Below, piece by piece: positions 2,502-18,774 of a stretch of DNA of 64,000 bases (position 1 is the first letter of the stretch; each line of letters starts with the position of its first letter). Below the pieces are notes generated by a model that saw only the letters and a program-made list of their open reading frames with translations, was not told where the DNA came from and did not search any database. The translations under genes and the position numbers were made by a program. Source of the stretch: Pseudomonas sp. A-RE-19 (GTDB lineage: Bacteria > Pseudomonadota > Gammaproteobacteria > Pseudomonadales > Pseudomonadaceae); the NCBI RefSeq assembly GCF_019956555.1, contig NZ_JAHBDQ010000033.1:186001-250000 (forward strand). Reading direction: 5' to 3'.

Positions 2502-3305
2502 TTATGCGCTGTAGTGCTTTTCGCCCCACGCCAACAACCCTTGCAGCAACTCCCTGAGCACCACCTGCGTCGGTGCCGCCAGGTCCGGGCGATAACGGAA
2601 CGGCTCGAACTCTTCCATGTACGTGCACTGCCCCAACTCCAGTTGCACGGCATGGATGTTTTCGGCCGGGTTGCCGTAATGCCGGGTGATGTGCCCGCCC
2701 TTGAAGCGACCGTTCAGCACATGGCTGTAATCGAGGTGCTTCGCGCAGATCGCTTCCAGTTGAGTGGCCAACTGTGGATCGCAACTGGCGCCATTGAAGG
2801 TGCCGAGGTTGAAGTCCGGCAATTTGCCGTCGAACAGGTGCGGGATGATCGAGCGGATCGAGTGCGCATCGAACAGCAGCGCATAACCGAACTCAGCCTT
2901 CAATCGTGCCAGCTCCTCCTGCAAGGTGCGGTGGTACGGCGTCCAGATTTGCTCCAGATAAGTCGCTCGTTCCGCCGCGGACGGCTCCATGCCCTCACGG
3001 AACAACGGAATACCGTCGAACAGCGTCGCCGGATACAGACCGGTGGTGGCGCCGACATACAACGGCTTGTCGTCGGACGGCCGGTTCAGATCGATGACAA
3101 ACCGCGAGTACTCGGCCGCCAGGGTGCTGGCGCCCAGCTCGGCGGCGAATTCGTAAAGCCTTGGGATGTGCCAGTCGGTGTCCGGCAGGCTTTTCGCGTC
3201 GGGAATCAACCCGGCTTCGACCGCCGGGGTCAGGCGCAGGCCGGCGTGGGGCATGCTGATCAGCAGCGGCACACGGCCTTGTTTGAAGTTCAGAACCTTA
3301 TCCAC
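2502..3305 (-). CDS. hutG: N-formylglutamate deformylase (amidohydrolase)
   Basis: HutG hydrolyses N-formylglutamate to glutamate and formate, the last step of the five-step histidine route. The protein is 267 residues, the usual family length, when started at the GTG at 3305 (VDKVLNFKQ). That start is preceded by AGGAG with 7 bases of spacing, whereas the longer open frame begins inside hutI and has no such site. Family motifs include SMPHAGLRL near the N-terminus, DTDWH, and FDAHSIRS, which carry likely metal-binding His and Asp residues. It is the last gene of the leftward hut series, starting 10 bases after the hutI stop. Its presence with hutF shows the two-step FIGLU route rather than direct formiminoglutamase. 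Confidence 0.96.
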   Translation of the reverse strand: MDKVLNFKQGRVPLLISMPHAGLRLTPAVEAGLIPDAKSLPDTDWHIPRLYEFAAELGASTLAAEYSRFVIDLNRPSDDKPLYVGATTGLYPATLFDGIPLFREGMEPSAAERATYLEQIWTPYHRTLQEELARLKAEFGYALLFDAHSIRSIIPHLFDGKLPDFNLGTFNGASCDPQLATQLEAICAKHLDYSHVLNGRFKGGHITRHYGNPAENIHAVQLELGQCTYMEEFEPFRYRPDLAAPTQVVLRELLQGLLAWGEKHYSA

Positions 3306-3315
3306 AACTGCTCTC

Positions 3316-4521
3316 CTAAACGCTTGTTTCGACGCCGTGACGCACGACGCGTTTTTCCAGGTCGCCGCCCAGCCAGTACGACAGGTCGGCCGGTCGATCA
3401 ATCTGCCAGGCGACGAAGTCTGCGACTTTGCCGGCTTCCAGCGAACCGTGAGTCTCGGCCATGCCCAGTGCGGTGGCGGCGTGAATCGTCGCGCCAGCCA
3501 GGGCCTCTTCCGGGGTCATGCGGAAACAGGTGCAGGCCATGTTCAGCATCAGGCGCAACGACAACGCCGGCGAAGTGCCCGGGTTGAGGTCGCTGGCGAT
3601 GGCAATTTTTACGCCGTGTTTGCGCAAGGCTTCCATCGGCGGCAATTGGGTTTCCCGCAGGAAGTAGAACGCGCCAGGCAGCAACACCGCGACGGTGCCG
3701 GACTTGGCCATGGCGATGGCGTCGTCTTCGGTCATGAATTCCAGATGATCGGCGGACAGCGCGTGGTAGCGCGCCGCCAGACTCGAACCGTGCAGCGACG
3801 ACAATTGCTCGGCATGCAGCTTCACCGGCAAGCCGAGTTGCTGTGCGGTGATGAACACGCGCTCGACCTGCGCCGGCGAAAACGCCAGGTATTCGCAGAA
3901 AGCATCCACCGCATCCACCAGCCCTTCGGCGGCCAGGGCCGGGAGCATTTCGCTGCAGATGTGATCGATGTAGTCGTCGGCCCGATCCGCGTATTCCGGT
4001 GGCAAGGCATGAGCGGCCAGGCAGGTGCTGCGCACGCTGACCGGGAGCTCGACGCCGAGACGACGGATGACCCGCAGGATCTTGCGTTCACTGGCCAGGT
4101 CCAGGCCGTAGCCTGACTTCATCTCGACCGTGGTCACGCCGTCGCGCATCAGACTCTTCAGACGCTTGGCGGCACTGGCAAACAGCTCGTCTTCGCTGGC
4201 GGCGCGGGTGGCGCGCACGGTGCTGGCGATGCCACCGCCGCTTGCTGCGATTTGCGCGTAACTGACGCCTTGCAGACGTTGCTCGAACTCGCCGCTGCGG
4301 TTGCCGCCGAACACCGTATGGGTGTGGCAATCGATCAGGCCCGGAGTGACCCAGGCCCCATTCAAATCGTTGACAGCCGGGTACTCGCCCGCCGGCAGTT
4401 CGCCGCGCGGGCCAATCCACTCAATGTGCGCACCTGACGTCACGATGGCCGCATCCTCGATGATCGAGTAGACGCCTTGCGCCATGGTTGCGACGTGGCA
4501 GTGTTGCCAGAGAGTTTTCAT
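3316..4521 (-). CDS. hutI: Imidazolonepropionase
   Basis: HutI hydrolyses 4-imidazolone-5-propionate to N-formimino-L-glutamate in the cytoplasm. The 401-residue protein has the amidohydrolase metal motif [10 protein letters not shown] (His66, His68), the segments KLHAEQ and SADHLEF that hold further His ligands, and [10 protein letters not shown] near the C-terminus with the conserved Asp. Length is normal. GGAGG lies 6 bases before the ATG. It sits between hutT (17 bases upstream) and hutG (10 bases downstream), consistent with one transcript. Confidence 0.97.
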
Positions 4522-4538: not shown

Positions 4539-5948
4539 TTATCGATGAGAAAAAGAAGGTTCCCGCTCCACCGGTACTGCCTTGCCCGCCGCCGGTTTCA
4601 CCCACGTCAGGTAGGCCAGCACCAGCAATACAATCCAGACCACACCGACGATCAGGGCCGCCTGGGTGTCCGGGAAATAGCCCAGCACGCCAAAGATGAA
4701 CAGCATGAAGGCAATCGCCGCCATCGGTGCATAGGGCCAGAACGGCACCGGGAATTTCAGTTGGGCGACCTGTTCGCGGCTCATGGAACGACGCATGGCC
4801 ACTTGGGTGAACAAGATCATCAACCAGACCCACACCGTCGCAAAGGTGGCGATGGAGGCGATCAACAGAAAGACGTTTTCCGGAATCAGGTAGTTCAGCA
4901 GCACGCCCAGCAACAGCGCGGCACTCATGACCACCACGGTCATCCATGGCACGCCATTGCGCGACAAGCGGGCAAAGCCTTTGGGTGCGTGCCCTTGCTG
5001 AGCCAACCCGTACATCATCCGGCCAGCGCCGAAGATGTCACTGTTGATGGCCGACACCGCCGCCGAGATCACCACGATATTGAGGATGGTCGCCGCCGAG
5101 CTGATACCCAGGTTGTCGAAAATCTGCACGAACGGGCTGCCCTGGCTACCGATCTGCTGCCACGGAAAGATCGACATCAGCACCAGCATCGTCAGCACGT
5201 AGAACAGCAAAATACGCAGCGGTACGGCATTGATCGCCCGGGGCAGCACATGCTGCGGGTCTTTGGCTTCACCGGCCGTCACGCCGATGATTTCAATGCC
5301 GCCAAACGCAAACATCACCACCGCAAACGAAGCGATCAGGCCGCCCACGCCGTTGGGCATGAAGCCGCCATGGCTCCAGAGATTACTGATGTCGGTCGCC
5401 TGGGCGCCGGGCGCGGTGCTGATGCCGAACAGCATGATGCCGAAGCCACCCAGGATCATCGCGACGATGGCCGCCACTTTGAGCAGCGACAGCCAGAACT
5501 CCATTTCACCGAAGACTTTGACGTTGCACAGGTTCAAGCCGCCGACCACCGAAACGATGCCCAGCACCCAGATCCAGCGGGCGACTTCCGGAAACCAGAA
5601 GCCCATGTAAATACCGAACGCGGTCACGTCGGCCATGCCGACGATGACCATTTCAAACGCGTAGGTCCAACCGAGGATGAAGCCCGCCATCGGCCCCAGA
5701 TAGGTGCTGGCGTACTGGCCGAATGAGCCGGCCACCGGGTTATGCACCGCCATCTCGCCGAGGGCGCGCATGACCATGAACACCGCCGCGCCACCAATCA
5801 GATAAGCGAGCAGGACCGCCGGGCCGGCCATTTGAATGGCCGAGGCAGAACCGTAAAAAAGCCCGGTGCCGATCGCCGACCCCAGCGCCATGAAGCGAAT
5901 ATGTCGGGCAGAGAGCCCGCGTTTCAAACCTTTTGCTGGCTGTTGCAT
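4539..5948 (-). CDS. hutT: Histidine permease, APC superfamily (HutT)
   Basis: A 469-residue inner-membrane amino-acid permease with about twelve hydrophobic segments. The N-terminal [16 protein letters not shown] signature is the glycine-rich first helix of the amino acid transporter (AAT/ProY) group of the APC superfamily. These are proton-coupled symporters. Location between the histidase gene and hutI identifies histidine as the likely substrate, matching HutT (HutTh) of other pseudomonads; the sequence alone would also fit proline or another amino acid. AAGGA lies 6 bases before the ATG. Confidence 0.9.
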
Positions 5949-6068: not shown

Positions 6069-7601
6069 TTACAGGCTAGGCAGCAACTTCGCCGTAACCA
6101 GCTCATTCAGGCAACGCGTGGCCAACAGCTCACTTGCCGCGTTGATGTCCGGTGCAAAGAACCGGTCCTTCTCATAAAACGGCACTTCAGCGCGCAGGAT
6201 GGCGCGAGCCTTTTCCAGTTTGGCCGAGGTTTTCAGGCCTTCACGCAGGTCCAGGCCCTGAGCCGCCGCCAACCATTCAACCGCCAGAACCCCACGCGTG
6301 TTCTCGGCCATTTCCCACAGACGCTTGCCCGCCGCCGGAGCCATGGAAACATGGTCTTCCTGGTTGGCCGACGTCGGCAGACTGTCCACCGAGTGCGGAT
6401 GAGACAGCGCCTTGTTCTCGCTGGCCAGGGCCGCCGCGGTCACTTGAGCGATCATGAAGCCGGAGTTCACGCCGCCATTGGCCACCAGGAACGGCGGCAG
6501 TTGCGACATGTGTTTGTCCATCATCAGCGAGATGCGGCGCTCGCTCAGGGAACCGATTTCGGCGATGGCCAGGGCCATGTTGTCGGCGGCCATGGCCACC
6601 GGTTCGGCGTGGAAGTTACCGCCGGAGATCACGTCACCTTCAGCGGCGAACACCAGCGGGTTGTCGGAGACAGCGTTGGCTTCGATCGCGAGTACTTCGG
6701 CGGCCTGACGGAACTGGGTCAGGCAGGCGCCCATGACTTGCGGCTGGCAGCGCAGGGAGTACGGGTCCTGGACCTTTTCGCAGTTCTGGTGCGAGTCGGA
6801 CACTTCGCTACGCTCGCCCAGCAGATCGCGGTAAGCGGCAGCGGCGTCGATCTGGCCTTTCTGACCGCGCGCGGCGTGGATCCGCGCGTCGAATGGCGAG
6901 CGCGAGCCCAGTACGGCTTCAACAGTCATACCACCAATGGCCAGGGCACCAGCAAACAGGTCTTCGCCTTCGAACAAACCGCGCAATGCATAAGCGGTAG
7001 AAACCTGAGTGCCGTTGAGCAGCGCCAGACCTTCTTTGGCAGCCAGGGTCAACGGGGTCAGACCGGCGATTTTCAGCGCTTCGGTTGCTTGCATCCACTC
7101 GCCTTTGTAGCGAGCTTTACCTTCGCCCAGCAGCACCAGGGACATATGGGCCAGAGGCGCCAGGTCACCGGATGCACCCACCGAACCTTTCAATGGAATG
7201 TGCGGGTAAACCTCGGCGTTGATCAGGGCGATCAGTGCATCGATCACCACGCGACGAATGCCGGAGAAACCACGGCTCAGGCTGTTGACCTTGAGCACCA
7301 TGACCAGTCGAACCAGCGCGTCGCTGATCGGCTCGCCGACACCGGCGGCGTGGGACAGAACGAGCGAGCGCTGCAGGTTTTCCAGGTCTTCGCTGGCGAT
7401 ACGGGTCGAAGCCAGCAGGCCGAAACCGGTGTTGATGCCGTAAGCCGTGCGGTTCTCGGCGAGGATCTGTTCCACGCAGGCAACGCTGGCTTCGATCTGG
7501 CTCGAGGCGCTGTTGTCGAGGGTGATTTTGACCGGTTGCTGATAAACATCACGCAGTTGGGCAAGGCTCAGTTGGCCGGGAATCAGGTTAAGCGCAGTCA
7601 T
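6069..7601 (-). CDS. hutH: Histidine ammonia-lyase (histidase), MIO-competent copy
   Basis: Histidase removes ammonia from L-histidine to give trans-urocanate. Started at the ATG at 7601, with AAGGAG 6 bases upstream, the protein is 510 residues, the normal family length; the longer frame adds an unrelated N-terminus. It contains [12 protein letters not shown], whose Ala143-Ser144-Gly145 cyclise to the MIO electrophile. The catalytic Tyr54 (AYGINTGFG), the SHAAG histidine, LLNGTQ, QDPYSLR and QEDHVSM are all present. This is the copy expected to do the chemistry. It follows the MIO-lacking paralogue by about 120 bases and precedes hutT across a REP doublet. Confidence 0.97.
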
Positions 7602-7718
7602 TTTGTGCTCCTTTTGAGAGTTTGTTGTTAACTCACCAGTCGCTCCGGAAATGTCCGTTGTCCGTCGCGTCAACCCTTTTGGGGAAGTCGCGCCTTGGCA
7701 CGCTGGTGTTTGTAGAAA

Positions 7719-9245
7719 TCAGTTCAGTTCTGGAAAAGCCTTGTGCAACAAAATCGGGTCTTTCAAAACACCGGCAGCGGCAGCAATGTCCGGTGCCAGC
7801 CAGCGGTCCTGGTCGTAGGCCGGAACCCGCTCACGCAGCAGACGCCATGCGGCATCGGTGCCCGCGCCAAAGCGTTGCTCTTTGAGGAATTCAAAAGCCT
7901 GGGATGCCAGCAAATATTCAATCGCGAGAATCTGCGTGCAGTTTTCCAATGCGCGATGCAGCTTCAGCGCCGCGTTGGTGCCCATGCTCAAGTGGTCTTC
8001 CTGCAAGCCCGAGGTGACGTAGTTGTCGAGCACCGCCGGTTGCGCCAATTGACGGTTTTCCGCACACAGGGATGCGGCGACGTACTGGACGATCATCATC
8101 CCGGAATTCACCCCGGGGTTGGCCACCAGAAACGCCGGCAGACCGCTGACGTGCGGGTTGATCAAACGATCCAGGCGACGCTCGGCGATGGAACCGATTT
8201 CTGCCATGGCGATGGCGAGCAAGTCAGCGGCCAACGCAACCGATTGGCCGTGGGGGTTGGCCTGGGACACGACGCGGTAGTTGTCCGGCGTGCCCAGCAG
8301 CATCGGGTTGTCGGTGACAGCGTTGAGTTCGGTTTCGATCTGCTTTTTCGCGTGCTCAAGCTGATCGCGAGCCGCACCGTGAACTTGCGGGATCGAGCGG
8401 ATGCTCAACGCATCCTGAGTGCGAATACCCTTGCTGCTGGCGATCACTTCGCTGCCATCGAGCAAGGCACGAAGGTTGATTCCCACCTGCTGCATGCCCG
8501 GATGGGGTTTAAGCGCGATGATCTCGGCGTCGAATGCCGCGATCTGGCCGCGCTGGGCTTCGAAGCTCATGGCACCGACCACGTCGGCCCACTGCACGAG
8601 TCGGGTTGCATCTGCGAGCGCCAGGCAGCTGAGGCCGGTCATGCATGGCGTGCCGTTGACCAGGCACAAGCCATCTTTAGCGCCCAGTTGCACCGGTTGC
8701 AGCCCCTCTTCGGCCAAGGCTTGCTGCGCAGAAACGATCTGCCCGCGATAGCTGACATTGCCGACACCCAACAGAGTGATTCCGATGTGGGCCATGTGGG
8801 TCAGGTAACCGACCGACCCCTGAGACGGCACTTGCGGGGTGATGCCGCGATTGAGTAGCGCCAGCAGGGCTTCGACCACGCGGCGATGAATGCCGGATTT
8901 GCCGTGGCTATAGTTGCGAATAGCGGCGCAGATGATTGCGCGGGTCTGTTCGTCGGCCAGTGGCGCGCCAACGCCACAGGCGTGACTGAGCAAGGTATTG
9001 CGCGACAATTGGCTGAGTTGTTCGTCCTGGAGCGAGACGTTGCACAAGGCGCCCAGGCCGGTGTTGACGCCATAGGCACGCTCGCCGCTGGCGACAATGC
9101 GCTGGACGATCGCCTGGGCATTCTCGATCCGCGCCCAGACCTGCGGTGACAGCTCAAGCTGTGCGCCATGGCGGGCGACGGCGACCACATCCTGCCAGCG
9201 CAACGGGGCGTCGGCGATAACGATTTTTTCAGCCTGGGACATCAT
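7719..9245 (-). CDS. Histidase-family paralogue lacking the MIO triad
   Basis: A 508-residue member of the aromatic amino acid lyase family, full length and open. It keeps Tyr58 (AYGVNTGLG), His88 (LLSHACG), Asn197 (LVNGTP), Gln277 and Arg283, and QEDHLSM. Where the neighbour has [15 protein letters not shown] it reads GSVGYLTHMAH: Ala-Ser-Gly and the following residues are gone, so no canonical MIO can form. The family tyrosine in QDPYSLR is also Leu280 here (QDALSIR). In P. fluorescens SBW25 two hutH copies are known in this position. By inference this one is not a conventional histidase and may act on another substrate, by another mechanism, or bind a ligand. It is placed between hutV and hutH in the operon. 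The first of two tandem ATG codons is given as start. Confidence 0.9.
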   Translation of the reverse strand: MMSQAEKIVIADAPLRWQDVVAVARHGAQLELSPQVWARIENAQAIVQRIVASGERAYGVNTGLGALCNVSLQDEQLSQLSRNTLLSHACGVGAPLADEQTRAIICAAIRNYSHGKSGIHRRVVEALLALLNRGITPQVPSQGSVGYLTHMAHIGITLLGVGNVSYRGQIVSAQQALAEEGLQPVQLGAKDGLCLVNGTPCMTGLSCLALADATRLVQWADVVGAMSFEAQRGQIAAFDAEIIALKPHPGMQQVGINLRALLDGSEVIASSKGIRTQDALSIRSIPQVHGAARDQLEHAKKQIETELNAVTDNPMLLGTPDNYRVVSQANPHGQSVALAADLLAIAMAEIGSIAERRLDRLINPHVSGLPAFLVANPGVNSGMMIVQYVAASLCAENRQLAQPAVLDNYVTSGLQEDHLSMGTNAALKLHRALENCTQILAIEYLLASQAFEFLKEQRFGAGTDAAWRLLRERVPAYDQDRWLAPDIAAAAGVLKDPILLHKAFPELN

Positions 9246-9293: not shown

Positions 9294-9354
9294 TCGCGAG
9301 CAGGCTCGCTCCCACATTGGAATGCGCCCCCTGTGGGAGCGAGCCTGCTCGCGA
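9294..9354. repeat. REP doublet, outward-facing arrangement
   Basis: TCGCGAGCAGGCTCGCTCCC and its reverse complement lie 20 bases apart in the gap between hutV and the MIO-lacking lyase gene. Confidence 0.9.
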
Positions 9355-9382
9355 TGAGGCCGGCAACGTCACCGCAAATTTC

Positions 9383-10213
9383 TCAAACCACCGCAGCCCG
9401 CCGCTGCACGAACCGGTCAACATACTCATCCGCCGGCGAATGCAGGATCTCTCTCGGCGTGCCGACCTGAATCAGGCGGCCATCCTTGAGGATCGCGATG
9501 CGGTTGCCGATGCGCACCGCCTCGTCGAGGTCGTGGGTGATGAAGACGATGGTCTTGTGCAGGGTCTTTTGCAGTTCCAGCAACTGGTCCTGCATCTCGG
9601 CGCGGATCAGCGGGTCGAGGGCGCTGAAGGCTTCGTCCATCAGGATGATGTCGGTGTCCGCCGCCAGGGCGCGGGCCAGGCCTACACGCTGGCGCATACC
9701 GCCGGAAAGCTGATGCGGGTATTTGTTTTCGTAGCCCTTGAGGCCCACGGTGTTGATCCAGTGCAGCGCGCGCTCAGCGCACACTTGCTTGCTCTCGCCA
9801 CGCACTTTCAGGCCGTAGGCGACGTTATCCAGCACGGTCTTGTGCGGCAGCAGGCCGAAGCTCTGGAACACCATGCTGATCTTGTGCCGGCGAAATTCGC
9901 GCAGGGCTTCCATGTCGTATTGCAGGATGTCCACGCCGTCCACCAGAATCGCGCCGCTGGTGGGGTCGATCAGGCGATTGAAGTGGCGCACCAGGGTCGA
10001 CTTGCCGGAGCCGGACAGGCCCATGATCACGAAGATCTCGCCGGTGGCGATGCTCAGCGACAGGTCGTTCACACCGACCACGCAGCCGGTTTCGGCCAAC
10101 ACCTGGTCTTTGGTCTTGCCCTGGCCAATCATGCCCAGCGCATCCTTGGAACGGCTGCCGAAAATCTTGAAGACGTTTTTGACTTCGATCTTGCTGATGG
10201 CTGCGTTGCTCAT
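9383..10213 (-). CDS. hutV: Histidine ABC transporter ATP-binding protein
   Basis: A 276-residue ATPase of the ProV/glycine-betaine subfamily. It has Walker A GLSGSGKST, signature LSGGMRQR, Walker B ILMDEAFSALDP and the switch His in FITHDLDEA. It would energise uptake through HutW with HutX as binding protein. Its ATG overlaps the hutW stop codon as ATGA, indicating translational coupling. Unlike full-length ProV it ends soon after the nucleotide-binding domain, with little room for a CBS regulatory region. Assignment to histidine rests on operon context and on HutXWV of other pseudomonads. Confidence 0.92.
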   Translation of the reverse strand: MSNAAISKIEVKNVFKIFGSRSKDALGMIGQGKTKDQVLAETGCVVGVNDLSLSIATGEIFVIMGLSGSGKSTLVRHFNRLIDPTSGAILVDGVDILQYDMEALREFRRHKISMVFQSFGLLPHKTVLDNVAYGLKVRGESKQVCAERALHWINTVGLKGYENKYPHQLSGGMRQRVGLARALAADTDIILMDEAFSALDPLIRAEMQDQLLELQKTLHKTIVFITHDLDEAVRIGNRIAILKDGRLIQVGTPREILHSPADEYVDRFVQRRAAVV

Positions 10214-11061
10214 TTGCTCACCTCATGCCGTGGCCGACCATACGCCTGAGTAATGCGGTCGATGACCACTGCCAGAATCACGATCGCCAGACCGGCTTCA
10301 AGGCCGCGTCCGACGTTGAGGGTCTGAATCCCCACCAACACGTCTTCACCCAGGCCACGGGCACCGATCATCGAGGCGATCACCACCATCGACAGCGCCA
10401 TCATGGTGGTCTGGTTGATCCCGGCCATGATGCTCGGCAGGGCCAGCGGCAGTTGCACGCCAAACAGTTGCTGCCAGCGGTTGGCGCCGAAGGCGTTGAT
10501 CGCTTCCATCACTTCACCGTCGACCTGGCGAATACCCAGATCGGTCAGACGGATCAGCGGTGGCGCGGCGTAGATCACGGTCGCGAAAATCGCCGGAACC
10601 TTGCCCAGACCGAACAGCATCAGCACCGGGATCAGGTACACGAAACTCGGCATGGTCTGCATGATGTCCAGCAACGGCATCAGCACTGAACGCAGGCGAT
10701 TGCTGCGCGCCGAGAGGATGCCCAACGGAATGCCGATCAGCACCGAGATGACGGTAGCCACCATCATCAGCGCCAGGGTCTGCATCAGCTTGTCCCAGAG
10801 GCCGACCGCCCCCACCAGGAACAGCAGACCGACGATGACCGACGTGGTCACGACTTTGCGGGTCGCGTGCCAGGCAACGCCCGCCACGATCGCCAGCATC
10901 AGCCACCAGGGCGCCGAACGCAGCAGCCCTTCAAGATTGACGATGGCCCACAACAGGGTGTCGGAGATGTGCCGGAACACATCGCCGTAGTTGGTGACCA
11001 ACGAATCGACCCAACTGTTGACCCAGTCGGCGATGGAAAAGGTAAAGCTTTCGGGAAACAT
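10210..11061 (-). CDS. hutW: Histidine ABC transporter permease
   Basis: A 283-residue inner-membrane permease of the ProW/OpuAB type with about six to seven hydrophobic helices and the BPD domain segment (MQTMPSFVYLIPVLMLFG, then EAINAFGANRWQQ, the EAA-like loop that contacts the ATPase). The ATG at 11061 (MFPESFTFSIADW) matches the usual N-terminus; the frame extends further upstream without a clear ribosome site. It lies 71 bases after hutX and overlaps hutV by ATGA. Confidence 0.92.
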   Translation of the reverse strand: MFPESFTFSIADWVNSWVDSLVTNYGDVFRHISDTLLWAIVNLEGLLRSAPWWLMLAIVAGVAWHATRKVVTTSVIVGLLFLVGAVGLWDKLMQTLALMMVATVISVLIGIPLGILSARSNRLRSVLMPLLDIMQTMPSFVYLIPVLMLFGLGKVPAIFATVIYAAPPLIRLTDLGIRQVDGEVMEAINAFGANRWQQLFGVQLPLALPSIMAGINQTTMMALSMVVIASMIGARGLGEDVLVGIQTLNVGRGLEAGLAIVILAVVIDRITQAYGRPRHEVSK

Positions 11062-11132
11062 AAAAAGACTCTCAATCAAGGGGTTGCGATCAAGCATCCG
11101 ACTGCCGTTGCCGACAGTCGGAGACACTCGAC

Positions 11133-12101
11133 CTACAAGGCCGCGTCGATCTTTTTGGCTGCGTCTTCACTCACCCATGCGTGCCAGACTTCAGGATGTT
11201 CCTTCAAGAAGATCTTGGCCAGTTTTGGCGACTCGATCCGCTCTTTGGTCATGCGCCCAAGATTCTGGTTCAGCAGGTCGATTGGCACGTTGACCTTTTC
11301 CAGCACGGCCACCAGTTCCGGGGCTTGCTCGTGGAAAGTCTTGGACAGGCCGACCTTGATATCCACGGTCTTGTTCACGCCTGGTTTCTCTTCGAGTTTC
11401 ACCACGTCGATCTGGCCCATCAGCGGGGTTGGCGACCAGTAGTAGAACAGGATCGGCTCGCCACGCTTGTAGCTCGACAGCACGGCCGCATCCAGCGCCG
11501 GGCCGGTGCCTGGGCGGAAGTTGGTGTAGGTGCTTTCCAGGCCGTAGCTTTTCAGCATTTCGCTGTTGTCCAGCTCGCAGGTCCAGCCGGCCGGGCAGTT
11601 ATAGAAACGGCCCTTGGATGGCTCTTCGGCGTCCTTGAACACCGCGGAATACTTGCCCAGATCAGCAATGTTTTTCAGGTCCGGGGCTTTCGGCTCAAGC
11701 TTGCGCTTGGCATCGCCTTCGATCACATAACGCGGTACGTACCAGCCTTCGACGGCACCCACTACCGGCGCGCCGACACCGACTACCTTGCCGGCCTTCT
11801 CAGCCTTGTTCCAGACCTCGCTGCGGCCGACCCACTCTTCGGCAAACACTTGAATGTCGTTGCTGCTCAGGGCGTTTTCCATGGTGATGGAGTTGCCTGG
11901 CAGGCTGTCGGTCTTGCAGTCGTAGCCTTTCTCCAGCACGACTTGCAGCACGTCGGTCAGCAGCATGGCGCTTTCCCAGTTCAGGCCGGCGAATTTCACC
12001 GGTTTGCCCGATTCGCACCAGCCCGCCGCCTGAGTGGCGCCGGCACTGGCCAACAGGCCCATGGAAAGCAATGTGGTCAGCAGGGTCTTGTTCGATTTCA
12101 T
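11133..12101 (-). CDS. hutX: Histidine ABC transporter periplasmic binding protein
   Basis: A 322-residue binding protein of the OpuAC family with a signal peptide (cleavage near ATQA-AGWCES). Two nearby cysteines (NCPAGWTCELDN) may form a disulphide. Aromatic residues in GLNWESAM, AEEWVGR and YYWSPTP are placed as in betaine-type binding proteins, but the hut context points to histidine. AGGAG lies 9 bases before the ATG. It is followed by its permease and ATPase, giving a complete importer. Confidence 0.9.
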   Translation of the reverse strand: MKSNKTLLTTLLSMGLLASAGATQAAGWCESGKPVKFAGLNWESAMLLTDVLQVVLEKGYDCKTDSLPGNSITMENALSSNDIQVFAEEWVGRSEVWNKAEKAGKVVGVGAPVVGAVEGWYVPRYVIEGDAKRKLEPKAPDLKNIADLGKYSAVFKDAEEPSKGRFYNCPAGWTCELDNSEMLKSYGLESTYTNFRPGTGPALDAAVLSSYKRGEPILFYYWSPTPLMGQIDVVKLEEKPGVNKTVDIKVGLSKTFHEQAPELVAVLEKVNVPIDLLNQNLGRMTKERIESPKLAKIFLKEHPEVWHAWVSEDAAKKIDAAL

Positions 12102-12169: not shown

Positions 12170-13642
12170 TCAGGCCTGCGCCGCAGCGCGACCGGCCCCG
12201 CTTTTTATAGGTGCTGCATCGCTGTCCTGCTCGACTGGCAGAATCAGGTGATCGGGTACTGCGCTGTGCCATTTTTTCGCGCACACGTAATACAGGCCTG
12301 CGGGAAGCACCAGACCGATGATCCAGGAAATATCCACACCACCCAGAGCGTCCACCAGCGGACCGGTGTAGAACTTGGTAGAGATGAACGGCAGTTGCAC
12401 CAGCACACCGAAGACATAAACGCTGATACCGAGGGGGTTCCAGCGGCCGTAGCGACCGTTTGGATCGGCCAGTGCCGGCACGTCATAGCGCTCGCGAGTG
12501 ATGCAGTAGTAGTCCACCAGGTTGATCGCGCTCCATGGTGTAAAGAACGCCAGCAAAAACAGGATGAAGGACTTGAACGCACCGAGGAACGAGTGTTGAC
12601 CGAGCAACGCCATCAGGGTCGCAGCACCGACGATGACCAGCACGAAGACCAGACGCTGCAAGCGCGTTACCCGCAGGTCACCACGGAAACCGCTGATGAC
12701 GGTCGCAATGCACATGAAGCTGCCGTAGGAGTTCAGCGTGGAGATGGTGACCTTGCCGAACGCGATGCTGAAGTACAGCAGCGCAGCGGTGGCACCGGTA
12801 CCGCCCAGACCCACGATGTAGGCCACTTCGTGGCCGGCGAACTGCCCGTTGGCCGAGGCGGCCGCAAGCACGCCGAGGATCATCGCCACCTGTGCGCCAA
12901 TGACCGAACCCGCGCCTGCGGCGAAAAAGGTCTTCACCGAGGAAGTCTTGCTCGGCAGGTAGCGTGAATAGTCAGCCACGTAGGGGCCGAAGGCGATCTG
13001 CCAGGACGCCGCGAGCGACACCGCGAGCAAGAAACTGCTCCAGCTGAAGTGGCGGATTTGCAACAGTGCGCCAACGTCAACCTGGCTCATCAGACGGCTG
13101 AACAGATAAACAAAGGCAATCACGCCAATGACACTGGCAACACGGCCGATCCAATGGATCACCCGATAACCGAGCACCGTGACCAGCACGATGACGCTGG
13201 CGAAGATGAGGATACCGACGCTGTCGCTGACGCCAAACAACTGGCCCAGCGCCTGGCCGGAAAGCACGGTGCCCGTTGCGGTGAAGCCCAGGTACATCAG
13301 GCACACCAGCACGATCGGGATGGCCGCGCCATAAACACCGAACTGCACCCGGCTGGAGATCATCTGCGGCAGGCCAAGCTTGGGCCCTTGCGCCGCATGC
13401 AGCGCCATTACGCCACCGCCCAGCAGTTGACCGATCAACAGACCGATCAACGACCAGAACACGTCACCGCCCAGCACCACGGCCAGGGCCCCGGTGACAA
13501 TCGCGGTGATTTGCAGGTTGGCACCCATCCACAGGGTGAACTGGCTCAACAGACGACCGTGTCTCTCCGCTTCCGGGATGTAGTCGATCGAACGTTTCTC
13601 GATCAACGGTTTACTGCCTGCACGATCGTCATTAACAGCCAT
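12170..13642 (-). CDS. NCS1-family permease, probable urocanate transporter (HutTu-like)
   Basis: A 490-residue membrane protein of the nucleobase:cation symporter-1 (cytosine/purine permease) family with about twelve hydrophobic helices. N-terminal features include RHGRLLSQFTLWMGANLQ, and the middle has ADYSRYLPSKTSSVK, both typical of CodB-like permeases. It lies directly between hutU and hutX. In P. fluorescens a transporter encoded next to hutU takes up urocanate, so urocanate is the most likely cargo here; cytosine, allantoin or hydantoin cannot be excluded from sequence. Confidence 0.85.
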   Translation of the reverse strand: MAVNDDRAGSKPLIEKRSIDYIPEAERHGRLLSQFTLWMGANLQITAIVTGALAVVLGGDVFWSLIGLLIGQLLGGGVMALHAAQGPKLGLPQMISSRVQFGVYGAAIPIVLVCLMYLGFTATGTVLSGQALGQLFGVSDSVGILIFASVIVLVTVLGYRVIHWIGRVASVIGVIAFVYLFSRLMSQVDVGALLQIRHFSWSSFLLAVSLAASWQIAFGPYVADYSRYLPSKTSSVKTFFAAGAGSVIGAQVAMILGVLAAASANGQFAGHEVAYIVGLGGTGATAALLYFSIAFGKVTISTLNSYGSFMCIATVISGFRGDLRVTRLQRLVFVLVIVGAATLMALLGQHSFLGAFKSFILFLLAFFTPWSAINLVDYYCITRERYDVPALADPNGRYGRWNPLGISVYVFGVLVQLPFISTKFYTGPLVDALGGVDISWIIGLVLPAGLYYVCAKKWHSAVPDHLILPVEQDSDAAPIKSGAGRAAAQA

Positions 13643-13783: not shown

Positions 13784-15472
13784 TTATTTGCCGGTAATCA
13801 TCGGCAGGTTCAGTCCCTGCTCCTTGGCACAGTCGATCGCGATCTGGTAACCGGCATCGGCGTGACGCATAACGCCAGTCGCCGGGTCGTTGTGCAGCAC
13901 GCGAGCGATACGCTCGGCCGCTTCATCCGTACCGTCGCAGACAATCACCATGCCCGAGTGCTGGGAGAAGCCCATGCCGACGCCGCCGCCGTGGTGCAGG
14001 GAAACCCAGGTCGCGCCGCTCGCGGTATTGAGCAAGGCGTTGAGCAGTGGCCAGTCGGACACGGCGTCGGAACCGTCCTGCATCGATTCGGTTTCGCGGT
14101 TCGGGCTGGCAACAGAGCCTGAGTCCAGGTGATCGCGACCGATCACGATTGGCGCGGACAATTCACCGCTGCGCACCATTTCGTTGAACGCCAGACCCAG
14201 CTTGGCGCGCAGGCCCAGGCCAACCCAGCAGATACGTGCCGGCAGACCCTGGAAGCTGATGCGCTCACGGGCCATGTCCAGCCAGTTGTGCAGGTGGGCG
14301 TCGTCCGGGATCAGTTCTTTGACCTTGGCGTCGGTTTTGTAGATGTCTTGCGGATCGCCCGACAGTGCAGCCCAACGGAACGGGCCGATGCCACGGCAGA
14401 ACAGCGGACGGATGTAAGCCGGTACGAAGCCTGGGAAGTCGAATGCGTTTTCCACGCCCTCTTCCTGGGCCATCTGACGGATGTTGTTGCCGTAGTCGAA
14501 AGTCGGTACACCCATTTTCTGGAAGTCCAACATCGCCTTGACGTGCACAGCCATCGATTGCTTGGCAGCTTTGATCACTGCGGCGGGTTCGGTCTTGGCG
14601 CGAGCGCGGTACTCTTCCCAGGTCCAGCCGGCTGGCAGGTAGCCGTTGAGCGGGTCGTGGGCGCTGGTCTGGTCGGTGACCATGTCCGGGCGCACGCCGC
14701 GCTTGACCAGTTCAGGAAGGATTTCAGCCGCGTTACCCAGCAGGGCGATGGAAATCGCTTTGCCTTCCTTGGTGTATTTGGCGATGCGGGCCAGGGCGTC
14801 GTCGAGGTCGGTGGCTTGCTCATCGACGTAGCGGCTTTTCAGACGGAAATCGATACTGACCTGCTGGCATTCGATGTTCAGCGAGCAAGCGCCGGCCAGG
14901 GTTGCGGCCAGAGGCTGAGCACCGCCCATGCCGCCGAGGCCTGCGGTCAGGACCCAACGACCTTTAAGGTCATCGTTGTAGTGTTGGCGACCGGCTTCGA
15001 CGAAGGTTTCGTAGGTGCCCTGAACGATGCCCTGGCTGCCGATGTAGATCCAGCTGCCAGCGGTCATCTGGCCGTACATGGCCAGGCCTTTGGCGTCGAG
15101 TTCGTTGAAGTGTTCCCAGCTCGCCCAGTGTGGCACCAGGTTGGAGTTGGCGATCAGCACGCGCGGGGCGTTGCTGTGGGTCTTGAACACGCCGACCGGT
15201 TTGCCGGATTGCACCAGCAGGGTCTCGTCGTCGTTCAGGTTGGTCAGGCTTTCGACGATCTTGTCGTAGCATTCCCAGTTACGTGCCGCACGACCGATAC
15301 CACCGTAAACCACCAGTTCTTTAGGGTTCTCGGCAACTTCCGGGTCGAGGTTGTTCATCAGCATGCGCAGCGGCGCTTCAGTCAGCCAGCTCTTGGCGGT
15401 CAGCTTGTTACCGCGAGCAGCACGGATTTCGACATTGCGGTATTTAGTAGGTTTCTGGGTGTTGTCAGTCAC
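13784..15472 (-). CDS. hutU: Urocanate hydratase (urocanase)
   Basis: HutU adds water to urocanate to give 4-imidazolone-5-propionate using a tightly bound NAD+ as electrophile. The 562-residue protein has the nucleotide-binding glycine-rich loop [14 protein letters not shown] (around 176-189), the conserved Cys415 in [14 protein letters not shown] (Cys410 in the 557-residue P. putida enzyme), and [13 protein letters not shown] near the C-terminus. The start codon is GTG (GTG ACT GAC AAC) with AGGAG 8 bases upstream. It is the first gene of the long leftward hut series, behind a sigma-54-type promoter and HutC operator. Confidence 0.97.
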
Positions 15473-15943: not shown

Positions 15944-16513
15944 TCAGCGCGCGATCAGCTCGATCACGCAACACTGACCCTTGATAGAGATATCCAGCAG
16001 CCCGACGTTACCATCCAGTTGCAGGCAATCATGACGGCCGAGTTGGCTGGTGTCGTTACCCACCTTCACTTCAAGCTCGTCGGTGACACTGAACACCAGC
16101 ACGGTGCCGGCCGAGCTGAAAAACCGCTGCTCGCCCTCCAGCCACTGCAACCGCGCGCGGTAACGGTCCGGCGCATAAATCAGGTTGAAATCGCGAATCG
16201 GCCCGCCGAGCAATGCGCAGGACACATGACTCTCACCACTGAAAGCGAAGGGGTCCAGCGGTAACAATGCCCGCGTGTTCTGACCGTCGACACGCAAGGT
16301 CATGCCCTCGCCTTGCAGCACGGTGATCACTCGCTCATAGCCGGCAAAGGTAGAAAACCCGCCCGACTCGCCGATGTCGGCAATCGACAGGCGCCAGCCA
16401 AAACCATCAAGGCCCACACCGCTATCGCGGGTGATTTCCTCGGTGCTACCGCCGCCGTTTTTCCACGGCATGCGCGGGTAATCGGCCGCGCGTAAAACCT
16501 TCAACTGACCCAT
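15944..16513 (-). CDS. hutD: HutD, hut operon modulator of cupin-like fold
   Basis: A 189-residue HutD/Ves-family protein recognised by its N-terminus LRAADYPRMPWKNGGGSTEE and the inner motif WRLSIADI. Members fold as a double-stranded beta barrel related to cupins and have no demonstrated catalytic role. In P. fluorescens HutD limits hut expression and affects fitness on histidine. It follows hutC by 27 bases in the same direction and is probably co-transcribed with it, separate from the hutU transcript because the sigma-54 promoter lies downstream. Confidence 0.93.
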   Translation of the reverse strand: MGQLKVLRAADYPRMPWKNGGGSTEEITRDSGVGLDGFGWRLSIADIGESGGFSTFAGYERVITVLQGEGMTLRVDGQNTRALLPLDPFAFSGESHVSCALLGGPIRDFNLIYAPDRYRARLQWLEGEQRFFSSAGTVLVFSVTDELEVKVGNDTSQLGRHDCLQLDGNVGLLDISIKGQCCVIELIAR

Positions 16514-16540: not shown

Positions 16541-17302
16541 TTATTTATGAAACCGTCCTTCCAGACGATGACGGGAACCGGGGTGGATCAAACGGGCGGC
16601 GGTCACTGGCTGACGGCCGGACCAGGTGCGGCGGCGAATCAGCAGGCACGGTTCGCCCTTTTCAATCTGCAGTAACTTGCACTCGGACGGCTCGGCGAGA
16701 ATCGCTTCGACCACATGCTCGCCTTCGGTCAACGGCGCGACCTGATTCAAATAGGCATATGGCGTTTGTACGGTGAAGTCTTGCTTGAGGTAGTCCGGCG
16801 CCACCAGCGCGTTGACGAAACGGTCTTCGATTTGCACCGGAATATCGTTTTCGAAATGCACGATCAGCGAGTGGAACACCTTCTGGCCTTCGCGCATGTC
16901 CAGGGCCAGGGCCCGCTCGGAACCGGCGGCCTCTTCTTCGAGGGTGATCACCTTGCAGGTGTGACGATGGCCACGGGAGGCGATCTCGTCGGCGATGTTG
17001 TGCACCTCAAACAAGGCAGACTGGCTTTTCGGTTCGGCGACAAACGTACCGACACCCTGCATACGCACCAGCAAGCCGTCGGCGGTCATCTCGCGCAGGG
17101 CACGATTGATGGTCATGCGGCTGAAACCCAGCTGATTGACCAACTCGCTTTCCGACGGAACGCGGTAGTGCGGTGGCCAGTTTCCACTGTCGATCTGCTG
17201 GGTGATCATCTGTTTGACGCGGGCGTACAGGGGCGCCGGACTGTCGCCCAGATTGGCGCTCAGATTGGCATTCGGCGGCAATGTGGCAGAGGGAGTCGGC
17301 AC
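16541..17302 (-). CDS. hutC: Histidine utilisation repressor, GntR/HutC family
   Basis: A 253-residue regulator. Residues about 24-90 form the winged helix-turn-helix (PLYARVKQMI, then VPSESELVNQLGFSRMTINR), and the remainder is a UTRA effector domain that in HutC binds urocanate. HutC represses the hut promoters until urocanate accumulates. The start lies about 70 bases from the palindrome TGTATATACA in the hutC-hutF gap, implying autoregulation. Confidence 0.96.
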   Translation of the reverse strand: MPTPSATLPPNANLSANLGDSPAPLYARVKQMITQQIDSGNWPPHYRVPSESELVNQLGFSRMTINRALREMTADGLLVRMQGVGTFVAEPKSQSALFEVHNIADEIASRGHRHTCKVITLEEEAAGSERALALDMREGQKVFHSLIVHFENDIPVQIEDRFVNALVAPDYLKQDFTVQTPYAYLNQVAPLTEGEHVVEAILAEPSECKLLQIEKGEPCLLIRRRTWSGRQPVTAARLIHPGSRHRLEGRFHK

Positions 17303-17409: not shown

Positions 17410-18774
17410 ATGTCCGCCTTCTTTGCCGAACGCGCGCTGCTGCCTAGTGGATGGGCCAACAATGTACGTCTTGAGGTCAGCGCCGATGGCGTGCTGACCC
17501 ATATCCAGGCCGATTCTCACGCAGATGACGCCGAACGGCTGAGCGGTCCGCTGCTTCCCGGGATGCCGAATTTGCACTCCCACGCCTTCCAGCGGGCCAT
17601 GGCCGGGCTGGCGGAAGTGGCGGGCAATCCGAATGACAGTTTCTGGACCTGGCGCGATTTGATGTACCGGCTCGTCGGAAAAATCAGCCCGGAGCAACTC
17701 GGCGTCATCGCCCGTCAGCTGTACATCGAAATGCTCAAGGCCGGTTACACCTCGGTCGCGGAATTTCATTACGTACATCACGACAATAACGGCCAGCCCT
17801 ACGCGGACCCGGCCGAACTGGCGCTGCGCATCAGCCAGGCCGCCAGCTCCGCCGGTATCGGTTTGACTCTGCTGCCGGTGCTCTACAGCCATTCCGGTTT
17901 CGGCGGCCTGGCCCCGAATGAAGGTCAGCGCCGCTTTATCAACAGCACCGAAAACTACCTGAAGCTCCAGTCGCGCTTGCAGCCGATCCTGGCGCAGCAA
18001 CCGGCCCAGGCCTTGGGTTTGTGTTTCCACTCGTTGCGCGCGGTAACACCGCAGCAGATCAGTGAAGTGCTGGCGGCCAGCGACAAGCAGTGCCCGGTGC
18101 ACATTCACATCGCCGAGCAGCAAAAAGAAGTCGATGACTGCCTGAGCTGGAGCGGTCGCCGGCCGTTGCAATGGCTGTACGAAAATACCGAAGTCGATCA
18201 GCGCTGGTGCCTGGTCCACGCGACCCACGCCAACCCGGAAGAAGTCACGCTCATGGCCAGGAGCCGCGCCATCGCCGGCCTGTGCCTGACCACCGAAGCC
18301 AACCTCGGCGACGGGATTTTCCCGGCGGTGGACTTCCTGGCGCAAGGCGGGCGCATGGGCATCGGTTCCGACAGCCATGTGTCGTTAAGCGTGGTGGAAG
18401 AATTGCGTTGGCTGGAATACGGCCAGCGTCTGCGTGATCAGCGGCGTAATCGTTTGTATGGCGCCGATCAGCCGATGGTCGGCCGCACATTGTACGACGC
18501 CGCGCTGGATGGCGGCGCCCAGGCATTGGGGCAGCCGATTGGTGCCCTCGAAGTCGGCAAGCGTGCCGACTGGCTGGTGCTGGATGGCAACGATCCGTAC
18601 CTGGCGACGGCCAGCGGCGACGGGATTCTCAATCGCTGGTTGTTTGCCGGGGGTGATCGTCAGGTGCGGGATGTACTGGTCAACGGTCAGTGGGTCGTGC
18701 GTGACGGGCGCCATGCCGGGGAAGAAGACAGCAATCGGGCGTTTACCCAGGTCCTGCGCGAACTGCTCGGTTAA
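17410..18774 (+). CDS. hutF: Formimidoylglutamate deiminase
   Basis: HutF deaminates N-formimino-L-glutamate to N-formyl-L-glutamate and ammonia. The 454-residue amidohydrolase has the metal motif NLHSHAFQRA (His56, His58), HIHIAEQQKEV with the third His, LVHATHA, and GIGSDSHVS with the conserved Asp. Length is normal. It is transcribed away from hutC from its own promoter region containing the TGTATATACA palindrome. With hutG it completes the bacterial five-step pathway. Confidence 0.96.
   Translation: MSAFFAERALLPSGWANNVRLEVSADGVLTHIQADSHADDAERLSGPLLPGMPNLHSHAFQRAMAGLAEVAGNPNDSFWTWRDLMYRLVGKISPEQLGVIARQLYIEMLKAGYTSVAEFHYVHHDNNGQPYADPAELALRISQAASSAGIGLTLLPVLYSHSGFGGLAPNEGQRRFINSTENYLKLQSRLQPILAQQPAQALGLCFHSLRAVTPQQISEVLAASDKQCPVHIHIAEQQKEVDDCLSWSGRRPLQWLYENTEVDQRWCLVHATHANPEEVTLMARSRAIAGLCLTTEANLGDGIFPAVDFLAQGGRMGIGSDSHVSLSVVEELRWLEYGQRLRDQRRNRLYGADQPMVGRTLYDAALDGGAQALGQPIGALEVGKRADWLVLDGNDPYLATASGDGILNRWLFAGGDRQVRDVLVNGQWVVRDGRHAGEEDSNRAFTQVLRELLG

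Follow-up and report, generated by a model that had tools for sequence, protein, structure and literature searches.

A conserved MIO-free histidase homologue of Pseudomonas hut operons, a candidate trimethylamine-lyase for histidine betaine

Why does a Pseudomonas hut operon keep two adjacent histidase-family genes, one of which lacks the Ala-Ser-Gly triad that cyclises to the MIO electrophile? The question arises from the window, by which we mean the whole stretch of 64,000 nucleotides analysed here (Pseudomonas sp. A-RE-19, contig NZ_JAHBDQ010000033.1, positions 186,001 to 250,000), taken from a genome of 6.2 Mb in 72 contigs. The triad-less protein is called HutH1 and its neighbour HutH2. 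The features that matter here are the following.

2502-3401 (-): hutG, N-formylglutamate amidohydrolase, labelled from its translation and homologues
3316-4521 (-): hutI, imidazolonepropionase, labelled from its translation and homologues
4539-5948 (-): hutT, amino-acid permease (ProY model 675.8 bits, cut-off 736)
6069-7673 (-): HutH2, canonical histidase with Ala-Ser-Gly, by profile and alignment; the true start is probably the ATG at 7601
7719-9245 (-): HutH1, MIO-less histidase homologue of 508 aa (class A), intact frame, PF00221
8406-8408 (-): codon of Leu280 (HAL Tyr280), by alignment
8787-8819 (-): codons of GSVGYLTHMAH (residues 143-153), site of the missing Ala-Ser-Gly, by alignment
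9383-10213 (-): hutV, ATPase of a betaine/proline/choline-type ABC importer (proV model 370.2 bits, cut-off 326.6)
10210-11127 (-): hutW, permease (nearest models ChoW, 296.3 bits, cut-off 363, and ProW, 261.9 bits, cut-off 439)
11133-12101 (-): hutX, substrate-binding protein (ProX model 76.9 bits, cut-off 215)
12170-13642 (-): NCS1-type permease (124.9 bits, cut-off 353.1)
13784-15472 (-): hutU, urocanase, presumed user of the HutH1 product, labelled from its translation
15944-16513 (-): hutD, labelled from its translation and homologues
16541-17302 (-): hutC, repressor, labelled from its translation and homologues
17410-18774 (+): hutF, formimidoylglutamate deiminase, labelled from its translation and homologues

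By rising coordinate, the minus strand reads choline-type substrate-binding protein, hutG, hutI, hutT, HutH2, HutH1, hutV, hutW, hutX, NCS1 permease, hutU, hutD and hutC, followed by hutF on the plus strand. HutH1 is thus co-directional with the hut genes, and its place in the cluster is conserved. The solved chains closest to HutX are glycine-betaine-binding proteins (best E 3.4e-24). The choline-ABC-type substrate-binding protein (1305-2303; 431.6 bits, cut-off 379.05) lies directly after hutG, and a palindromic repeat at 9294-9356, presumably of the Pseudomonas REP kind, separates hutV from HutH1. A third histidase-family gene of this genome (L003:1330-3024; G000 C23:114407-115768) has Ala-Ser-Gly, and we take it to be of the kind found in aryl-polyene clusters. 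By the gene order of P. aeruginosa, PA5093 is presumably the second hutH-like gene of that species. The hutG label that PA5093 bears in one report (PMC12772324) may therefore be off. In Pseudomonas sp. J380, both hutH copies and hutU are described as upregulated under iron limitation in another (PMC8069873).

HutH1 is an intact gene that passes for a histidase. Its open reading frame has an ATG start and no internal stop, it matches PF00221 over positions 1-466 of 466 with 564.6 bits (Pfam profile search), and it shares 189 of 471 residues (40%) with HutH2. It also passes the NCBIfam equivalog model for hutH, TIGR01225 (552.9 bits, cut-off 539.15), which is blind to the absent triad, and plasmid records name HutH1 orthologues histidine ammonia-lyase (HAL). 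Since both the model and these records call HutH1-type proteins histidine ammonia-lyase, many genomes probably carry the wrong enzyme name for them. The MIO-cyclising Ala-Ser-Gly by which HAL (EC 4.3.1.3) is recognised is absent. At the motif GSVGYLTHMAHI of HutH1, HutH2 has Ala-Ser-Gly, and the alignment of the two opens a clean three-residue gap with a tyrosine beside it (GSVG---YLTHMAH). The motif QDALSIR of HutH1 contains Leu280, which is a tyrosine in HAL. The first-pass annotation of the window had described two adjacent histidase-family genes of which one lacks the triad, a leucine in place of the tyrosine of QDPYSLR, and retention of Tyr58, His88, Asn197, Gln277, Arg283 and QEDHLSM; the alignment bears out each of these points. 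A GFP-like or other electrophile formed from GSVGY was considered and finds no support, as no glycine follows the tyrosine. An AlphaFold2 model of HutH1, built on a 27-row alignment of the window and related loci, reached a mean pLDDT of 53.5 and was too poor for use.

The residues lost and kept follow a consistent pattern. All 29 class A rows of a diverse alignment lack Ala-Ser-Gly, replace Tyr280 by leucine and replace Phe329 by proline (16) or alanine (13), and Tyr53, His83, Asn195, Gln277, Arg283, Met382 and Glu414 are invariant in all 29. Leucine at HAL Tyr280 is shared by 2/2 ergothionase-type rows and by 8/8 rows of group D; the tyrosine is retained in 22/22 HutH2, 5/5 aryl-polyene-type and 5/5 class B rows. 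According to PMC11432326, Tyr52, His82, Asn194 and Glu411 are essential in the histidase of Geobacillus kaustophilus (GkHAL), and the F329G variant of the P. putida enzyme formed no MIO. The equivalents of all four residues are kept in 29/29 class A rows. Judged from the alignment, the residues serving MIO are gone from HutH1, and those that would hold the substrate and move the proton remain. Because the MIO-serving residues are lost and the histidine-holding ones kept, this would be the pattern expected for a substrate with a bulkier amine that does not need the electrophile.

The same deletion recurs well beyond the window. Some HutH1 match (E <= 0.001) is present in 144 of the 149 genomes of our genus sample, and 104 of the 149 carry an orthologue of at least 58% identity (hand count). 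Matches are found in 31 of 119 genomes of the family sample (E <= 1e-120) and in 23 of 398 genomes, or 13 of 212 genera, of the phylum sample (E <= 1e-115), all three samples coming from one phylum. The best 80 of the 502 relatives in an all-prokaryote genome scan are all Pseudomonas, and plasmid records add homologues in Erwinia, Burkholderia, Rhizobium and Aureimonas. Ten records of a phage collection also match, the best at 60 to 80% identity. We typed the histidase-family reading frames in the loci (at least 300 aa and at least 150 bits) by their best match among six family queries. Among 183 distinct HutH1-best sequences, the Y-type deletion is present in 177, the distant group D accounts for six with a one-residue deletion, and xSG is absent from all; among 170 distinct HutH2-best sequences, xSG is present in 168, a single residue is deleted in one, and the site is not visible in the last. 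With xSG in none of the 183, the gap is neither chance nor a sequencing error. This settles three matters raised by the first-pass annotation: a conserved family with the same gap exists, close homologues with a restored triad do not turn up among the HutH1-best sequences, and a sequencing error in the window is ruled out by the 177 sequences that share its deletion.

Class A is an old and coherent group. Ala-Ser-Gly is absent from every class A sequence examined, so its loss looks ancestral rather than recent. A first tree of 71 sequences, 29 of them class A, was computed with the columns of the MIO site and the Leu280 motif excluded. In it, the class A branch has support 100/99, as does canonical HutH2, and the clade reaches other orders and classes beyond Pseudomonadales and Gammaproteobacteria. 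A second tree (65 rows, two more solved histidases) gives class A 100/100. All 44 MIO-less rows fall on one side of the first tree (95/90). In the second, the MIO histidase 7tqr lands on the MIO-less side (87/76), and we therefore do not claim a single origin of MIO loss. The dN/dS of HutH1 is 0.071 (78 Pseudomonas orthologues, median of 600 sampled pairs), compared with 0.045 for HutH2 (77 orthologues) and 0.038 for hutU (74). Purifying selection thus holds HutH1, slightly more weakly than HutH2. As the first-pass annotation had suspected from the intact frame, the gene is not simply decaying: it has neither the broken frame nor the relaxed selection of a pseudogene, and its clade is deep. 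Taken together, HutH1 is a real, conserved MIO-free class of the histidase superfamily, not a pseudogene and distinct from ergothionase.

What substrate such a protein may act on is suggested by the importers that accompany it. We fetched 80 Pseudomonas loci from the genome collection and left out two shorter than 8 kb. In 78 of the 78 loci of at least 8 kb, hutX-W-V lies directly before HutH1, and in 77 of them HutH1 sits between hutV and HutH2. In 44 further class A loci (one for each genome locus, counting the window), the nearest upstream gene with a label is a ProU-type importer in 13, a His-type ABC importer in 15 and a BCCT carrier in 10, and in the other six a GbcA-like oxygenase (2) or no importer (4); these labels rest on score thresholds that we set ourselves, and the genomes are related, so the locus counts are non-independent trials. 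hutU is on the stretch in 26 of the 44, and some class A members therefore lie outside a hut operon. Besides the two GbcA-like genes, N-methyl-L-tryptophan-oxidase-type (3) and DMGDH-like (3) neighbours occur. Neighbours in loci L141, L197, L194 and L186 were tested against models, where the GbcA-like one scored 585.6 bits (cut-off 670).

In 10/10 BCCT loci, the BCCT gene lies between hutU and HutH1. Three of these carriers score 386-393 bits against PF02028, and BetP is the solved chain nearest to the one carrier compared. Since the BCCT-linked rows all fall into one six-row subclade of the tree, the link between BCCT and HutH1 may be a single event.

As a control, we used 18 same-genus hut loci from the 45 of 149 genomes without HutH1, chosen for a strong HutH2 match. 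None of the 18 has a gene labelled hutX/W/V, BCCT, NCS1 or His-type ABC, and the amino-acid permease hutT is labelled in nine. In 17, the stretch includes hutU, separated from HutH2 by no more than 587 bp, which leaves no room for an importer; the eighteenth (locus L280) showed only HutH2. BCCT is likewise absent from seven further canonical hut loci. A His-type ABC importer was also weakly matched at the canonical cluster of genome G653. Finding such importers close to hut genes is no surprise, and in Sinorhizobium the ProU-type HutXWV transports histidine in addition to betaines; the linkage should therefore not be over-read.

Which product HutH1 probably makes is suggested by the genomes where it stands alone. 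In the genus of G559, hutU is present in 7 of 18 genomes. HutH1 occurs in six of these seven and in none of the other 11, and canonical HutH2 is found only in G653 and G660. Five genomes (G559, G644, G652, G657 and G659; 96-100% complete) have a hut operon in which hutU, hutI, hutF, hutC and hutD are accompanied by no HutH other than HutH1, hutG being labelled in three of the five. The remaining Ala-Ser-Gly-bearing proteins in the fetched loci of this genus are of one type, distinct from HutH2, which we take to be the aryl-polyene-cluster type; a partial match in G660 (L267) is untyped. On a single contig, G653 carries a hut cluster that includes HutH1 and another that includes HutH2. A group D gene is also present in G559 and G653. 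Because the five hut operons have no other HutH, the simplest reading is that HutH1 supplies their urocanate, which it most likely makes itself. On a plasmid of Aureimonas sp. AU20 (L195:8528-11488 (+)), there is also a full hut operon, and the only hutH on the fetched stretch is MIO-less.

We propose that HutH1 is probably a lyase that splits trimethylamine from a histidine betaine independently of MIO; the substrate would most likely be hercynine, which it would convert to urocanate. Hercynine is N-alpha,N-alpha,N-alpha-trimethylhistidine (histidine betaine), from which fungi and actinobacteria make ergothioneine. PMC7653990 describes this trimethylhistidine as an intermediate toward ergothioneine. 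In the proposed mechanism, the importer (hutXWV here; BCCT or a His-type ABC elsewhere) would bring in the betaine, and the retained pocket (the equivalents of His83, Glu414 and Arg283) would hold its imidazole and carboxylate. Tyr58 would then abstract the beta-proton, and trimethylamine would depart with no need of an electrophilic cofactor, since a quaternary amine leaves readily as it is. The urocanate would pass to hutU-I-F-G. We infer the lyase chemistry, the urocanate product and hercynine as the substrate; the release of trimethylamine is suggested by the importers and, by analogy, by the shared MIO-less site. Our searches of open-licence literature turned up no report of a MIO-free hercynine trimethylamine-lyase.

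Several observations weigh against the hercynine reading. The catalytic set is unlike that of ergothionase (Lys383 to Tyr388, Asn195 versus Ser), HutH1 is nearer to HAL by score, and the trees do not join it to ergothionase. The His-type ABC of 15/44 loci does not specify a betaine, HutX and HutW score below the cut-offs of their nearest models, and six of the 44 loci have no importer part directly upstream. In addition, class B, MIO-less beside a true hutU in locus L188, keeps Tyr280.

Of the functions offered by the first-pass annotation, that of a MIO-free lyase for a histidine analogue agrees well with these results. A hydrolase, an isomerase or a regulator is disfavoured, since HutH1 is the sole HutH of five hut operons, keeps the essential residues and is tied to importers. 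As for isomerases, a role as cis-urocanate isomerase was considered because HutU acts on trans urocanate; it was rejected, as we found no sequence evidence for it and one literature search brought up no such gene.

A possible though rather doubtful alternative is that HutH1 performs the same MIO-free elimination on another histidine derivative and still yields urocanate or an analogue of it. Candidate substrates would be N-mono- and dimethylhistidine, histidines acylated on the nitrogen or modified on the ring, and an oxidised ergothioneine. The histidase contacts are kept and Phe329, Tyr280 and MIO are gone from around the amine, which would suit such substrates, as would the N-methyl-amino-acid-oxidase-like and DMGDH-like neighbours in six of the 44 loci and the His-type ABC in 15. 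However, the BCCT and ProU-type importers and the GbcA-like oxygenase neighbours indicate quaternary amines, and the true HutU partner argues against thio-derivatives.

It is unlikely that HutH1 is a MIO-free histidase for L-histidine itself, providing a second route to urocanate. Such a role would explain why HutH1 can be the sole HutH of an operon in five genomes and, MIO apart, keeps the HAL residues reported as essential. Against it, the Ala-Ser-Gly-bearing HutH2 is kept alongside in 77 of 78 Pseudomonas loci. We know of no precedent for MIO-free elimination of plain ammonia in this fold, and Zhang and Rainey reportedly found in 2007 that one of the two hutH copies of P. fluorescens SBW25 is nonfunctional.

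We give little credence to the notion that HutH1 is a pseudoenzyme, either a regulator that binds a ligand or a subunit that joins HutH2 in its tetramers, which its lost electrophile and its place immediately ahead of hutH2 at 77 of 78 Pseudomonas loci might suggest. The five genomes with HutH1 and without canonical HutH2 offer no HutH2 to serve, none of the acid/base and binding residues varies among the 29 diverse members, and HutH1 moves with an importer.

That HutH1 is an ergothionase, converting ergothioneine to thiourocanate and trimethylamine, is very improbable, and we rejected the name. HutH1 does lack MIO, belongs to the same superfamily and has leucine at Tyr280, but it forms a separate clade without an equivalent of Lys383, and four genomes (G044, G365, G507 and G304) hold class A plus separate ergothionase-like genes near a HutU paralogue. 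Finally, decay of a hutH duplicate, for which only the triad loss and a dN/dS slightly above that of HutH2 (0.071 against 0.045) would speak, is largely refuted by the deep, old clade, the low dN/dS over 78 orthologues and the complete lack of xSG among the 183 sequences.

In a wider sense, we lean slightly towards the view that these proteins are a widespread, misnamed family of MIO-free hercynine trimethylamine-lyases, which comes as a cassette with its own importer and gives Pseudomonas, Erwinia, Burkholderia and rhizobia a second way into the Hut pathway, and that MIO loss in this superfamily generally marks lyases whose leaving group is a quaternary amine. If hercynine is the substrate, this would account for the hutH copy of SBW25 reported as nonfunctional, reveal a further source of trimethylamine among bacteria of soil and plants, and give histidine betaine a use. 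HutH2 and HutH1 would then be a natural test of the role of MIO, with the same scaffold carrying it for poor leaving groups and lacking it for good ones.

How does HutH1 compare with its known relatives? With histidase (HutH, EC 4.3.1.3) it shares PF00221, about 40% identity, Tyr53, His83, Asn195, Gln277, Arg283 and Glu414, and the hut operon. It differs in lacking Ala-Ser-Gly and hence MIO, in the changes of Tyr280 to leucine and of Phe329 to proline or alanine, and in its separate deep clade.

Class B is a second MIO-less class in Pseudomonas (L188:8866-10521 (+), L155:4832-6412 (-), L189, L190, L146:2944-4518). It has the same three-residue gap with a tyrosine (GSVGYLAVEGH), whereas it keeps Tyr280 and is about 38% identical to HutH1. 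A His-type ABC importer is nearby, and the class B gene of L188 adjoins a second hutU that is 98% identical to that of the window. Class B is possibly another urocanate-forming lyase with a different substrate. A clade of classes A and B has support 76/41 in the first tree and an AU p of 0.247 in the second, a value that neither establishes nor rejects it. Further MIO-less homologues with one residue deleted (GSLGAAD, GSIGAAD, GSIGAGD, GSLGESD) were seen in L177:4964-6502 (-), L233, L234, L235, L239 and L240, and that of L177 adjoins a hut operon with HutH1.

A known parallel is ergothionase (Treponema denticola, 6s7j/6s7q; Burkholderia sp. HME13), which is likewise a MIO-free member of the superfamily with leucine at Tyr280. 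The T. denticola enzyme reads SSIG-EGDITTLSH at the site and QDPLSFR at the motif, one residue being lost (ASG to EG) where HutH1 has lost three. Its Lys383, which we take to be catalytic, corresponds to Tyr388 in 29/29 class A rows; this position is lysine in 2/2 group C rows and lysine (6) or arginine (2) in the eight group D rows. Asn195 of HutH1 is serine in ergothionase. By score, HutH1 lies nearer to HAL. The branch that carries ergothionase is long, and both trees keep class A a separate clade that does not group with the known enzyme.

The ergothionase-like genes of the four genomes that also carry class A lie 1.4-4.4 kb from a HutU paralogue (49-50% identity), which is presumably a thiourocanate hydratase. 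Loci L229 to L232, with ergothionase-like genes at L229:6983-8641 (-), L230:10887-12506 (-), L231:6986-8572 (+) and L232:6983-8578 (+), are likely ergothioneine or ergothioneine-sulfonate degradation loci. In contrast to these genes, class A goes with the true HutU, which argues for plain urocanate as its product. Without MIO, ergothionase releases trimethylamine from ergothioneine, as PMC13405746 reports. Trimethylamine is thus split off a histidine betaine, and by analogy HutH1 may well use the same chemistry.
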